Shown here: positions 5,428-36,008 of the stretch, piece after piece
How the letters are laid out: every line of letters starts with the position of its first letter
How positions within the stretch are numbered: the first letter of the stretch is position 1
NCBI GenBank assembly: GCA_958295915.1
Contig: OY282381.1
Span: forward strand, 3,680,722 to 3,744,721
From: an uncultured Caldilineaceae bacterium
GTDB lineage: Bacteria; Chloroflexota; Anaerolineae; Caldilineales; Caldilineaceae
Direction of reading: 5' to 3'
Length of the DNA stretch: 64,000 nucleotides
Notes under the pieces: model-generated
The model's database searches: none
What the model saw: the letters and a program-made list of their open reading frames with translations, nothing else
Told to the model about the DNA's origin: nothing
Program-made: the position numbers and the translations under genes

Positions 5428-6327
5428 CTAGATCTTGACAAACTTCCGCACATGATTGCCGTGGTCGCCCAGCTCGCCGACAAAGATGTTGCTGTGCGAA
5501 TCGGTCCAGATGCTGTGCGGCATACGCATACCAGATTCTTCACCCCGAAAGCGGCCAACCAGTTCGCCCGCTTCAGTAAAGATTGAGACACCGACCGGCT
5601 CCGGCCCCCTGGCCATCGACCTGCCCTGCTCGGCGACGTAGACCAGTTTGTCCGGGCTGATATACACATCGCCAGGACTATTCACATCTTCCCACATCTC
5701 AATGAATTGTCCCTCCCGGTCAAAGATCTGAATGCGGCTGGACTCCCGATCACAGACCAAAACCCTGCCCTGTGTGTCGATGCCGATATTGTGCACCAAC
5801 GCGAACTGACCCGGCTCCGTGCCAGATGTTCCCCACGAAAGCTCAAGCTCGCCCTCTGGGGAAAAGCGACGGACCTGATGGTTCCCATAGCCATCCGCGA
5901 CAAAGATCGCGCCGTCTTGGGCTATCGCCACCCCTGCCGGCATATTGAATGGACCGTCCAAGCTGGTTCCATACGGCGTCACCGTCATCATGGCCCAGCC
6001 CCGACGCCCCAATTCGAGCAGCTTCTCCCCATGCCGCGTGTGCTTGGTGACTACGTGATCTTGCCGGTCAGTGACCCACACATAGTCATCGGCGTCGATA
6101 TACATGCCGTGTGGTTCCTTAAATGCCCCCTCGCCCCATGAAGTAACGAAGCTGCCGCTGTCCGCCTCAAACACAGCCACCGGATGCTTGTGTCGATTAA
6201 AGATAAAGACCCGATCCCGCGAATCAATCGCCAGATCGGATACCGACCCCAATGACCACCCTTCAGGCACTGTTGGCCAGGATTCGTCCAGTTCATACCG
6301 AAAATCGCCATATCCCACTGTCAGCAT
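5428..6327 (-). CDS. NHL-repeat six-bladed beta-propeller protein, copy 1
   Basis: A 299-aa protein built of repeated ~45-residue blades with the NHL pattern (DSRDRVFIFNR, DADDYVWVTDR, AQDGAIFVADGYGNHQVRRF, DTQGRVLVCDRESSRIQIF). This fold is used by peptidyl-alpha-hydroxyglycine lyase-like proteins and other ligand-binding propellers. No signal peptide is visible, so it is probably cytoplasmic. The start at ATG 6327 is chosen because GGAGGA precedes it and the paralogue begins with the same MLTVGYGDFRYE; the open frame further upstream is only translated palindromic repeat. It is a tandem duplicate of 6667-7545 and differs by a short insert (GRSMARGPEP) in the penultimate blade. Catalysis is unproven. 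Confidence 0.85.
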   Translation of the reverse strand: MLTVGYGDFRYELDESWPTVPEGWSLGSVSDLAIDSRDRVFIFNRHKHPVAVFEADSGSFVTSWGEGAFKEPHGMYIDADDYVWVTDRQDHVVTKHTRHGEKLLELGRRGWAMMTVTPYGTSLDGPFNMPAGVAIAQDGAIFVADGYGNHQVRRFSPEGELELSWGTSGTEPGQFALVHNIGIDTQGRVLVCDRESSRIQIFDREGQFIEMWEDVNSPGDVYISPDKLVYVAEQGRSMARGPEPVGVSIFTEAGELVGRFRGEESGMRMPHSIWTDSHSNIFVGELGDHGNHVRKFVKI

Positions 6328-6342
6328 CAGTTGTCCTCCTGT

Positions 6343-6609
6343 GTCGCGCCCAACAGTGGCACGCATACAACAGTTAAATGTCGCGCCCAACAGTGGCGCG
6401 CAATACAACAGTTAAATATCGCGCCCAACAGTGGCGCGCAATACAACAGTCAAATGTCGCGCCCAACAGTGGCGCGCAATACAACAGTTAAATGTCGCGC
6501 CCAACAGTGGCGCGCATACGACAGTTAAATGTCGCGCCCAACAGTGGCGCGCAATACAACAGTTAAATATCGCGCCCAACAGTGGCGCGCAGCAATACAA
6601 CAGTTAAAT
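6343..6609. repeat. Seven-copy tandem palindromic repeat array
   Basis: Seven head-to-tail units with a 37-38 bp period; the CGCGCC arm begins at 6345, 6382, 6420, 6458, 6496, 6533 and 6571. Each unit holds the hairpin CGCGCC-CAACAGT-GGCGCG (6-bp stem, 7-nt loop; the first copy has one arm mismatch) followed by a spacer close to CAATACAACAGTTAAAT. The spacers are nearly identical, so this is not a CRISPR array. Single copies occur at 7563-7581, 7596-7614 and, inside a gene, 15517-15535. The array sits directly upstream of the first beta-propeller gene. Confidence 0.93.
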
Positions 6610-6666
6610 CAGGAGAATCACAGTTCAGTTTGTGATCCTGTCCGGTTGGGTTTCTACTGCGCGTCG

Positions 6667-7545
6667 CTAGATCCTGACAAACTTCTGCACGCAATGGCCG
6701 TGGTGGCTCAGCTCCGATATAAAGATGTTGCTGTGCGAATCGATCCAGATGCCGTGCACGCCACGCAGACCAGATTCCTTACCCCGGAAGCGGCAAACCA
6801 GTTCGCCCGCTTCACTGAAGATCGAAACAGCCCCCCCGCCCCCCTGCTCGGCGACGTAGACCAGTTTATCGGGGCTGACGTACACATCGCCAGGAGCTTT
6901 TACATCATCCCAGATCGTAATGAATTGCCCCTCACGGTCAAAGATCTGAATGCGGTTGTTCGCCCGATCACAGACCAAAACCCTGCCCTGTGTGTCGATG
7001 CCGATATTGTGCACCAACGCGAACTGACCCGGCTCCGTGCCAGACGTTCCCCACGAAAGCTCCAACTCGCCCTCTGGGGAGAAGCGATGCACCTGACGGT
7101 TCCCATAGCCGTCCGCGACAAAGATCGCGCCGTCTTCCGCTATCGCCACCCCCGCCGGCATGTTGAACGGTGGATCCAAGCTAGTGCCGTGCGGCGTCAC
7201 CGTCATCATGGCCCAGCCCCGACGCCCCAATTCGAGCAGCTTCTCCCCATGCCGCGTGTGCTTGGTGACTACGTGATCTTGCCGGTCAGTGGCCCACACA
7301 TAGTCGTCGGCGTCAATAAAGATGCCGTGCGGTTCCGTAAATTCACCCTCGCCCCACGAGGTAACGAAGCTCCCCGTGTCCGCCTCAAACGCGATCACTG
7401 GATGCTCGTTTCGATTAAAGACAAAGACCCGATCCCGCGAATCAACCGCCAGATCGGACGGATGATCCATCGACCACCCTTCAGGCACTGTTGGCCAGGA
7501 TTCGTCCTGTTCGTAGCGAAAATCGCCATATCCCACTGTCAGCAT
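6667..7545 (-). CDS. NHL-repeat six-bladed beta-propeller protein, copy 2
   Basis: Close paralogue (292 aa) of the gene at 5428-6327. Long stretches are identical (ADDYVWxTDRQDHVVTKHTR, SWGTSGTEPGQFALVHNIGI), with most changes in blade 1 and near the C-terminus. The ATG at 7545 is preceded by GGAGGAC, as in copy 1. The open frame upstream is translated palindromic repeat (RATVGRD twice) and is not part of the protein. The duplication includes the repeat-bearing leader: both genes have the same spacing from start codon to the first CGCGCC palindrome. The gene lies downstream of a uronate-dehydrogenase-like gene and an LplABC-type importer on the same strand, suggesting a role in that pathway, perhaps a lactonase-like or sensing propeller (inference). 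Confidence 0.85.
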   Translation of the reverse strand: MLTVGYGDFRYEQDESWPTVPEGWSMDHPSDLAVDSRDRVFVFNRNEHPVIAFEADTGSFVTSWGEGEFTEPHGIFIDADDYVWATDRQDHVVTKHTRHGEKLLELGRRGWAMMTVTPHGTSLDPPFNMPAGVAIAEDGAIFVADGYGNRQVHRFSPEGELELSWGTSGTEPGQFALVHNIGIDTQGRVLVCDRANNRIQIFDREGQFITIWDDVKAPGDVYVSPDKLVYVAEQGGGGAVSIFSEAGELVCRFRGKESGLRGVHGIWIDSHSNIFISELSHHGHCVQKFVRI

Positions 7546-7562
7546 CAGTTGTCCTCCCGTGT

Positions 7563-7614
7563 CGCGCCCAACAGTGGCGCGCATACAACCTGAGTCGCGC
7601 CCTACAGTGGCGCG
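7563..7614. repeat. Two single copies of the CGCGCC-loop-GGCGCG palindrome
   Basis: Copies at 7563-7581 (loop CAACAGT) and 7596-7614 (loop CTACAGT) lie between the beta-propeller copy 2 start and the stop of the SDR gene at 7622. They are the same element as in the array at 6343-6609, but with a shorter and different spacer. Confidence 0.85.
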
Positions 7615-7621
7615 CAAATAG

Positions 7622-8413
7622 TCAAGTCCTGCGCCAATGATCATCCGCGCTATCGGACGGGACAGTACCCAACAGCTCCCAGGCGTAGGGCGTGTCGTAG
7701 ATCTTCCACCTATTGTTGGACGCGCCGTAAAGGATTTCATAGTTTATATTGGGGCGTTCGACACAAGCCCGAAAAAAGCCGGCCGCATCGCCATGGCTGA
7801 ACCAACTCACCAGCGAGCGATAGTCACGGCCAGGACGATTGTAAGAAGGAAGCGTGCCGAGACGAACACAGATGACCTCCATCGGACGCTGGTCAGGCCG
7901 ATCGATGTTGCCCCCCTCGGTATAGTAGCGCCCCAGAGACTCGCCAAAGATTTTGGTAGCGCCGTATCGACTGTCCGGCCTGGCCGGATCATCGCCCTTG
8001 ACCAGCTCGATAGCGGCCGGATCCAGATCGTCCAGGCGGCCGGATACAATGGACAGGTAAGGCTCGTCGAATTCATAGCCGCCCATAGCGTGCATAGAAC
8101 TGGCGAAGATGACCCGGCGCACGCCGGCATCGTGGGCCGCATCGTACATGTGGGCCGTGGCAATCAGGTTGGGATTCGTCAGCGCATCCCAACCGATTTC
8201 GACCTCATGTCGTGGATCGGCTGCCAGATGGATGACCACCTCCATGTCTTCGAAAACCGGCGGCAGCGCGTCCGCATCACAAAGATCAACCTGGGTTGCA
8301 TTCGCCCATTCTGACGGGCGCAGATCCAAGCCGTACACGTCATGGTCGCGGCCAAGTTCAGGCGCCAAAAAACTGCCGATCGTGCCGGCGATACCGGTAA
8401 TAAGGATTTTCAT
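7622..8413 (-). CDS. NAD-dependent epimerase/dehydratase family protein, uronate-dehydrogenase-like
   Basis: Extended short-chain dehydrogenase, 263 aa, with the nucleotide-binding start MKILITGIAGTIGSFLAPEL and the catalytic pair in SRYGATKIFGESL (YxxxK near residues 143-147). The surroundings (VVIHLAADPR, FASSMHAMGGY, VCVRLGTLP, a C-terminal LYGASNNRWKIYD) resemble the uronate (hexuronate) dehydrogenase branch, which oxidises D-galacturonate or D-glucuronate to an aldarolactone. The start at ATG 8413 is supported by AGGAGAC just upstream. It is downstream of the sugar importer at 8652-12618 and upstream of the propellers, fitting cytoplasmic oxidation of an imported sugar or uronate. Assignment to this branch rather than UDP-sugar epimerases is by eye. 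Confidence 0.82.
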   Translation of the reverse strand: MKILITGIAGTIGSFLAPELGRDHDVYGLDLRPSEWANATQVDLCDADALPPVFEDMEVVIHLAADPRHEVEIGWDALTNPNLIATAHMYDAAHDAGVRRVIFASSMHAMGGYEFDEPYLSIVSGRLDDLDPAAIELVKGDDPARPDSRYGATKIFGESLGRYYTEGGNIDRPDQRPMEVICVRLGTLPSYNRPGRDYRSLVSWFSHGDAAGFFRACVERPNINYEILYGASNNRWKIYDTPYAWELLGTVPSDSADDHWRRT

Positions 8414-13939: not shown

Positions 13940-15721
13940 TCACAGCAGCCCCAGATCCTTAGCCCGTTCACGCACCGCTTCGGTCAGCCCAGGATAGAAT
14001 TGCAGTCTGGCATCGGCTCCCGTATGCCGCCTCTCGAACAAGGCTGCCGTCTCATATAGGGTGTAGCCGGCCAGCGCGCCGGAGCGATACGCATACTCGA
14101 TCTGGTCGGCCAACTTGCCCCCATCACCACCGCTCAGCCCCAGCGGCTCGCTCAGGTGCGCCGGTACATCCGCAGCCTTCACCTCAGCCAAAACATCCTG
14201 CACGAAGGCATCTGCCAGAACGCGCGCAGGCATCCAGGCTCGGGCAAAAAGCGTAACCTCATCCGCCAGACCCGTCCGCAGCCAGCGACGCCAATGGAAG
14301 GTGATGTTGCCCGGACGGGTACGGACGCGAGACGGCGCGGCATCAGAGCGGAACGACTCGACTTCCACATGGAGCTGCATCCGTATCTCAGCGGCAGAGA
14401 GACGCGCCTTGGCTGCGCCCAGGAACTGATCGAAAAAATCCCCCCGCAGGTCGCCCAATAGCGCCGGATCATAAGACTCCACATCAGGGTCGACCCCGTA
14501 GCGCCGTTTGTACTCCGCCAGGACCGGCTCATTGAAGCCGTAGATCATCGGTGTATCCGTCCATGAACTGTGACACGAAATGCGCACATCCACACCGTCA
14601 ACACCAGCCATGATGCAATCGCTGATCCAGCTCAGCCAGAAACCTTGCACCTCTGTATCGCCCTCACACAAGGAGCCGGACAGGTATGCGTTGCGCCCCT
14701 TGGCAAATGCGATCACGCCATCACGCGCGTCCGAGGAGTGGCCGAGCGCGCTATCGAATTCCGCCGCTTTGTTGGTTACGTCCAGACAGACCACGACGGC
14801 GCCCAGGCCAGTGTCATATTCCAGATCGCCGCTGCGTAGGTCGCGTTGTGGCCGCCAGATGGCTTTGTGGCTAGCGACCACAATGGGCAGCGGTTGATCG
14901 TCCGGGCCAAAAGCCCGCGCCATCTCAACGGCAGTGTTGCAGAACGTGCCGTCCTGGCCTTCGAAGTTGGTCGTGATTGCAATGAAGGGCTCCGACAGGC
15001 TGAGACCAGTTATCTCAAGCGTCCGCACCTGGTCGCCCCGACGTGTGACCAATTCGCCGTCCATATCGACCACATCATGAGGACACGTCTCCACTCCCGC
15101 GCTGAGGCTGAACTGTACCGCGCGCTTCTGGTAGCCGTTATTGTCATCGCTGGTCCAGATCTCCAGGTGTTCCGGTTCGATGCGCACGGGCGTCATGTCC
15201 TTCTGCCGCAGTTGGATGCGCGTGACCGGTACCGTGTCCAGACCCACCGGCACATCCGCCTGGCGGGCTCGCAGGCGCAGTTCCGGGCGCGCCAGTACCC
15301 AAGGATCGACGCGGTACCGCCCGCCGATGCCAGGCAACCCTCTCAGTCCGCTCCTCTCCAGCACCGCCCGGGGCGTGGCGTGACTGACGCCATTTTCGTA
15401 GGGCTTTATTACAGCGTAAAATTCCATGCCGCGCTCATGAGCCAGACGGCAGCCGACCAGCATAGGATCGCCCAGGTTCTCAAGCGTCTGACGCGCGCCT
15501 GAAGTCCCCCCATCGTCGCGCCCAGCAGTGGCGCGCCATTCAACCTTTTCCACGAACCACTTCCATAGGCCGGCGTTGTAGTAGTTCCAATAGACCCGGC
15601 CCACGCCCATCCACCGCAGACGGTCCATCAGTTGCGCCAACAGCTCCTCAGTGAAAGCAATCTGCTGGCAGTCATCGGGAAAATCTACCAGAGCGGAGAG
15701 TAGGAACGAACGATCTTTCAT
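13940..15721 (-). CDS. Unrecognised protein, possibly TIM-barrel glycoside-hydrolase-like, with an in-frame palindromic repeat
   Basis: A 593-aa protein I cannot assign to a named family. The start reads MKDRSFLLSALVDFPDDC followed by MDRLRWMGVGRVYWNYYN, and the middle has ISDCIMAGVDGVDVRISCHS and FNEPVLAEYKRRYGVDP. These strings look like barrel strands of glycosidase-type proteins (an FNEP-like acid, a following linker, then a VDVRISCHS strand). No signal peptide is visible. Residues about 62-69 (WRATAGRD) are encoded by a copy of the CGCGCC-loop-GGCGCG palindrome (15517-15535) that is arrayed at 6343-6609, so a mobile repeat has been tolerated in frame. It lies in the minus-strand operon between a peptide-type importer and sialidase-like protein 1. 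A role in processing an imported glycoside is plausible. Confidence 0.75.
   Translation of the reverse strand: MKDRSFLLSALVDFPDDCQQIAFTEELLAQLMDRLRWMGVGRVYWNYYNAGLWKWFVEKVEWRATAGRDDGGTSGARQTLENLGDPMLVGCRLAHERGMEFYAVIKPYENGVSHATPRAVLERSGLRGLPGIGGRYRVDPWVLARPELRLRARQADVPVGLDTVPVTRIQLRQKDMTPVRIEPEHLEIWTSDDNNGYQKRAVQFSLSAGVETCPHDVVDMDGELVTRRGDQVRTLEITGLSLSEPFIAITTNFEGQDGTFCNTAVEMARAFGPDDQPLPIVVASHKAIWRPQRDLRSGDLEYDTGLGAVVVCLDVTNKAAEFDSALGHSSDARDGVIAFAKGRNAYLSGSLCEGDTEVQGFWLSWISDCIMAGVDGVDVRISCHSSWTDTPMIYGFNEPVLAEYKRRYGVDPDVESYDPALLGDLRGDFFDQFLGAAKARLSAAEIRMQLHVEVESFRSDAAPSRVRTRPGNITFHWRRWLRTGLADEVTLFARAWMPARVLADAFVQDVLAEVKAADVPAHLSEPLGLSGGDGGKLADQIEYAYRSGALAGYTLYETAALFERRHTGADARLQFYPGLTEAVRERAKDLGLL
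15517..15535. repeat. Palindromic repeat inside a coding sequence
   Basis: CGCGCC-CAGCAGT-GGCGCG, one loop base different from the consensus of the array at 6343-6609 and with perfect arms. It lies in frame in the gene at 13940-15721, which remains open through it. Confidence 0.85.
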
Positions 15722-35852: not shown

Positions 35853-36008
35853 CAAAGCCGCGGGGGCGCGAAGTCATCATACAACAGCTTGGTTTTTTCT
35901 TTGCGTCCTTGCGACATTGCGACATTGCGTTAAAACAAAGCCGCGAAATCACCATAAAACAGCTGTTTTTCCTTGCGTCTCTGCGTCCTTGCGACATTGC
36001 GTTAAAAA
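35853..36008. repeat. Tandem pair of interspersed repeats (AAAGCCGCG...TTGCGACATTGCGTT)
   Basis: Two head-to-tail units, 35853-35936 and 35937-36008. Each starts AAAGCCGCG, passes CATCATACAACAGCTT or CACCATAAAACAGCTG, and ends CTTGCGACATTGCGTTAAAA. Relatives lie at 8560-8645, 33940-34012 and 49975-50045. The 35495-36041 gap has no intact gene. Confidence 0.75.

Follow-up and report, generated by a model that had tools for sequence, protein, structure and literature searches.

A 30-bp REP-like palindrome in frame within a protein gene of a Caldilineaceae bacterium, and its probable recent spread through one chromosome

The DNA analyzed here, referred to as the window, is a stretch of 64,000 nucleotides from the chromosome of an uncultured Caldilineaceae bacterium. 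It contains a gene for a 593-aa protein whose neighbors encode ABC permeases, a solute-binding protein and a BNR-repeat protein, and whose coding sequence includes a short GC-rich palindrome. The AlphaFold model of this protein is poor (pLDDT 44). The features concerned are as follows.

13940-15721, minus strand: host gene of 593 aa with an intact frame; the protein has no match in Pfam or NCBIfam.
15512-15544, minus strand: net insertion of 33 bp (codons 60-70, VEWRATAGRDD), missing in homologues by alignment.
15515-15544, plus strand: 30-bp element of family 1, GTCGCGCCCAGCAGTGGCGCGCCATTCAAC, a hairpin with a CATTCAAC tail, assigned from a 173-copy consensus and profile score.
15517-15535, plus strand: palindromic core with 6-bp arms and a 7-nt loop, from the sequence, the arm-pattern count and the fold.
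15545-15551, plus strand: CTTTTCC tract adjoining the tail; by flank composition it fits the pyrimidine-rich flank beside many copies.
6343-6609, plus strand: seven-copy tandem array of family 1 with a 37-38 bp period, upstream of an NHL-repeat gene (5428-6327, minus strand).
7561-7623, plus strand: two-copy array of family 1 with a 33 bp period, upstream of an NHL-repeat gene (6667-7545, minus strand).

The two NHL-repeat genes are similar neighbors (5428-7545, minus strand), and a palindrome array lies just 5' of the start of each. An imperfect 72-bp tandem repeat of about 1.9 copies at 35867-36007, apparently intergenic, is unrelated to the palindrome.

The sequence CGCGCCCAGCAGTGGCGCG at 15517-15535 reads CGCGCC-CAGCAGT-GGCGCG, and its perfect 6-bp arms and single loop change relative to CAACAGT are present as the initial annotation had claimed. 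The arm pattern occurs nine times in the window against 0.03 expected, a count that none of 100 shuffles reached; the remaining eight occurrences belong to the seven-copy array, in which one arm is altered, and to the pair, all between 6343 and 7623. The unit, as a refinement of that description, is a 30-mer rather than the 19-bp palindrome, which forms the core of a longer sequence at 15515-15544. Its consensus, GTCGCGCCCNACAGTGGCGCGCAATACAAC, comes from an alignment of 173 copies found in an 864-kb sample of the genome. A profile search of this sample returned 218 matches, with none in reversed sequence, and the copy at 15515-15544 scored 40.3 of a maximum of 51. Folded as single-stranded DNA, the unit gives a 6-bp stem and a 7-nt loop (z about -2.5), and single copies have a pyrimidine-rich flank past the tail (C T T T T C, 41-65% per position). 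Each element thus consists of a GC-rich hairpin, its loop 7 nt long, and a tail rich in A (AATACAAC/ATTCAAC); in most cases the pyrimidine-rich flank adjoins.

Copies are numerous in this genome, which is assembled as one contig of 5.06 Mb. The pattern TCGCGCCNNNNNNTGGCGCG, allowing at most one mismatch, matched 459 times, compared with 4 for a reversed control, and the longer consensus matched 383 times, so family 1 amounts to about 380-460 copies. In 16 congeners, Caldilineaceae MAGs that we take to be sponge symbionts, the loose pattern gave 5-24 matches each, near or somewhat above reversed controls, and the longer consensus gave none in the congeners searched. The longer consensus had a single match, in one other genome, in a search of 396 genomes of the class, and viral contigs yielded no exact match.

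The initial annotation described the palindrome as a frame-preserving repeat copy inside the 593-aa gene, and alignment of homologues bears this out. Homologues from all 16 congeners, at 68-74% identity, are without the segment, as are those from two genomes of a different genus; conservation of the segment in homologues that lack the repeat elsewhere was not seen. Seven intact congener homologues (L054-L060) are 582 aa long, and the sole alignment gap is 11 residues exactly over the element. This single gap, corresponding to 33 bp or the 30-mer plus GAT, indicates a lineage-specific, frame-preserving insertion. The translation RATAGRD, previously placed near codons 62-68, is indeed in frame; its exact position is codons 63-69, one further on.

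We then asked of the wider sample, 40 stretches plus the window (864 kb), how often copies lie in genes; several stretches had been picked for high copy density, and sample frequencies therefore differ from genome averages. Of 135 clusters, 50 fell within called genes, against a coding share of 84% of the sequence, as judged with a home-made gene caller that favors open frames and from which a frame-breaking intragenic copy could escape except through the split-gene check described below. Intragenic copies are thus depleted yet common. All six phases and both strands are in use, so the frame is kept through element length rather than through a favored phase.

Twenty loci were compared with three congeners, and homologues were found for 19, in most of which the segment is missing. 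Six loci carry a net insert of about 10 aa: an RpoD-like sigma factor, an FtsX-type permease (aa 73), a hydantoinase-type protein (aa 68), an amidohydrolase, an ABC protein (gene 16) and gene 9. In the sigma-70 factor (L073 892-2196), classed as RpoD-like by NCBIfam, the insert is the sole internal insertion of that size. Larger or less tidy cases include gyrase A (11 aa), an aminotransferase (about 12 aa), an OppD-like ATPase with three 30-bp units, ThyX and an acetolactate synthase-like protein; net inserts can differ from 30 bp, as with the 33 bp in the 593-aa gene. Three copies are accompanied by little net length difference, namely those in DNA ligase LigA (2 aa), a radical SAM protein (5 aa) and the hydantoinase-type protein at aa 295 (0-6 aa). 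With a net change of only 2 aa, the LigA copy is no case of clean insertion, and these three, as opposed to the clean insertions, may lie in variable loops or replace sequence. In-frame repeats of 15-bp subunits (GGCGCGCAATACAGT), each half a palindrome unit, occur in genes at L074 8649-8708 and L095 6299-6373.

A second family, GTTGAATGCGCCTCTGCTCGAAAGAGGCGC, is also 30 nt long, with an 8-bp stem, a 7-nt loop, an ATTCAAC tail in the same relative position as that of family 1, and a pyrimidine-rich flank. The sample holds 59 copies, 20 of them in called genes. Genome-wide there are 263 forward and 271 reverse pattern matches, two sets that overlap since the pattern is near-palindromic, compared with 0-11 matches in congeners, where some copies show a compensatory stem change (GCGCCCCT/AGGGGCGC). 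The window has no second-family copy; one lies at L077 12306-12335, with others at many sites in the genome. The two families stand back to back, with one copy each, in the FtsX-type permease, giving 21 extra residues. The earlier suggestion that tolerance of repeats inside genes is general in this genome thus agrees with the 50 intragenic clusters, with the insertions confirmed in most aligned genes and with the second family. The common length, loop size, tail and flank suggest that both families are moved by one machinery. Other dispersed repeats, built around TGAGGTATGAGCGCAATCATA / TTCGGTATTCCCGCC and GGGAATTATATACTTAACTGCACAAG, are mostly outside called genes; their sites include L084 15841, L097 2527, L077 869 and L093 11822.

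On these observations, the likely explanation is a mobile palindrome of REP-like kind and very small size, recently spread through the chromosome of one species, with frame-preserving copies in genes. Being 30 bp (10 codons) long and stop-free in nearly all frames, the unit would, on landing in a gene, in many cases add about 10 residues without a frameshift. Insertions would persist where the protein tolerates the extra residues, and damaging ones would be lost; some copies would then duplicate in tandem, with only repeat lengths divisible by 3 persisting within genes. Movement may proceed as single-stranded hairpin DNA or RNA through an enzyme supplied in trans, and the element presumably gives its host no benefit. 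A bolder form of this reading, which we offer tentatively and would not bet on, is that several families of 30-nt mobile hairpins with a common tail, loop size and flank preference use one enzyme of a type other than RAYT or reverse transcriptase, and that their ten-codon length has let them colonize genes, including those for the RpoD-like sigma factor and gyrase A.

The closest competitor is a variant of the mobile-palindrome reading itself, in which a RAYT-type HUH transposase mobilizes the element and has recently been lost or is missing from the assembly. The hairpin, conserved tail and flank preference resemble those of REP substrates, and the genome is about 99% complete, so that a gene could be missing. 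However, a search of this genome and of 11 congeners for Y1_Tnp (PF01797, RAYT family) came back empty, with control genomes positive, and the GTAG or CGTC tag is lacking; we regard this variant as possible and somewhat doubtful. RVT_1 likewise had no match in the genome, with positive controls; a reverse-transcription function could possibly be supplied in trans by another route. As regards MITE criteria, no target-site duplication was found around single copies, and copies have no larger flanks in common, except where gene units are duplicated and in a few other repeats. Points that count against the mobile-palindrome reading as a whole are the lack of a Y1_Tnp or RVT_1 match in this genome, the lack of target-site duplication, the net inserts that depart from 30 bp, the three aligned copies with little net length difference, and the use of a home-made gene caller.

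The repeats might instead be host-beneficial sites, for protein binding, chromosome organization or mRNA stability, kept under selection even in genes. Regionally uniform orientation and the dense arrays 5' of genes would be in keeping with this. All exact copies listed between 1.94 and 2.82 Mb are on the minus strand, and sampled copies between 3.0 and 3.7 Mb are mostly on the plus strand; GC skew is too flat to decide whether replication strand explains the orientation. Against such a role, the repeats are missing from congeners and, within genes, occupy all six phases and both strands. Furthermore, at nine duplicated intergenic sites between 1.80 and 1.82 Mb, the same position holds 0, 1, 2, 3 or 4 units. 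Units have been gained or lost there since the duplication, although this by itself does not prove transposition. Roughly 2-kb units in tandem duplication surround these nine sites (L073 3527 to L074 2622, about 1.803-1.823 Mb). Selection for a host function is therefore improbable as the main explanation. Because the units of one array have near-identical linkers in common, arrays are taken to grow by tandem duplication. A CRISPR array was considered and rejected, since most copies are single and the linkers are near-identical in place of unique spacers.

Another alternative is that intragenic copies are not translated, being removed at the RNA level or bypassed by the ribosome, as with mitochondrial bypass elements and intervening sequences. 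The copies are indeed hairpins within conserved genes. Removal or bypass would, however, need no lengths divisible by 3, and yet tandem-copy spacing inside genes is divisible by 3 in 11 of 11 cases (15, 18, 30, 33), compared with 20 of 58 elsewhere, where 29, 31, 37 and 38 are common (Fisher p = 5e-5 on pairs, with pairs within one array non-independent). In-frame stops are missing from the copies: in the phase where a loop T would give TAG, T is found in none of six, though it is the commonest base overall. Stop-free frames as such are unexceptional for the element, since 23% of 30-mers drawn at random from the genome have no stop in any of the six frames, and 64% have none in five or more. 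Finally, in 12 candidate split-gene arrangements a copy lies between genes that are close together on one strand; in every case these have the look of two separate genes, and no gene split by a frameshifting copy was seen among them. On the strength of the spacings, the stop-free copies and the lack of split genes we rejected the intervening-sequence reading, and consider removal or bypass in any form very improbable; the spacings indicate that intragenic copies are probably translated. That the segment in the 593-aa gene is ancestral, has a function in the protein and resembles the repeat by chance is hardly credible: it is in frame in an intact gene, but it is missing from all 16 congeners and both genomes of the other genus, the intact 582-aa homologues show one gap only, and many unrelated proteins are interrupted by the same 30-mer.

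A mobile 30-nt unit would be near the lower size limit for a mobile element, and dozens of its insertions in conserved enzymes amount to a natural insertion-tolerance scan. It also raises the question of how a hairpin of 30 nt is moved, given that searches of the genome turned up no RAYT and no reverse transcriptase.

Among known systems, the small dispersed repeats of Nostoc described by Elhai et al. in 2008 are reportedly 21-27 nt hairpins with a recent spread within one lineage. The present element is likewise a very small, recently spread hairpin, with differing sequence and host. Rickettsia palindromic elements are 100-150 bp long, lie in frame in many unrelated protein genes, form several families per genome and also have intergenic copies (Ogata et al. 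2000, 2002, summarized in PMC10969869 and PMC3767692). They share with the element described here a palindrome in frame within protein genes whose homologues lack it; they differ in size (here 30 bp), in host (an obligate intracellular alphaproteobacterium, here a 5-Mb Chloroflexota genome) and in copy number, several hundred per family here. GTAG/CGTC-tagged intragenic REPs are stem-loops of 20-40 bp in high copy number, a fraction of which lies in genes including those for DNA ligase and repair; they are known in several bacteria, and the CGTC families lack a dedicated transposase (PMC3733652). The present element, with 30 bp, a 6-bp stem, a 7-nt loop and 459 copies, falls within the REP range of size and copy number. 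Unlike REPs, it has no consistent GTAG/CGTC: family 1 ends in NGTC, the first position being C in just 26%, and family 2 has GTTGAAT. It further differs in its fixed 30-nt unit with a AATACAAC/ATTCAAC tail, its head-to-tail arrays, the lack of any RAYT found, and the intragenic share, roughly one third of the clusters sampled. Mitochondrial GC clusters, double-hairpin elements and sponge RHEs are short hairpins that also occur in genes and are kept in transcripts (PMC2800124), in organelle genomes as opposed to the bacterial chromosome here. Judged by the open-access literature, and allowing that an earlier description may exist elsewhere, the principle is already known; this case departs from it in its host, in a unit of 30 nt, in having a pair of sister families and in a genome where searches for RAYT and reverse transcriptase gave nothing. 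It thereby extends protein-coding selfish palindromes past the Rickettsiales and the hosts known for REPs, into a Chloroflexota genome of 5 Mb.
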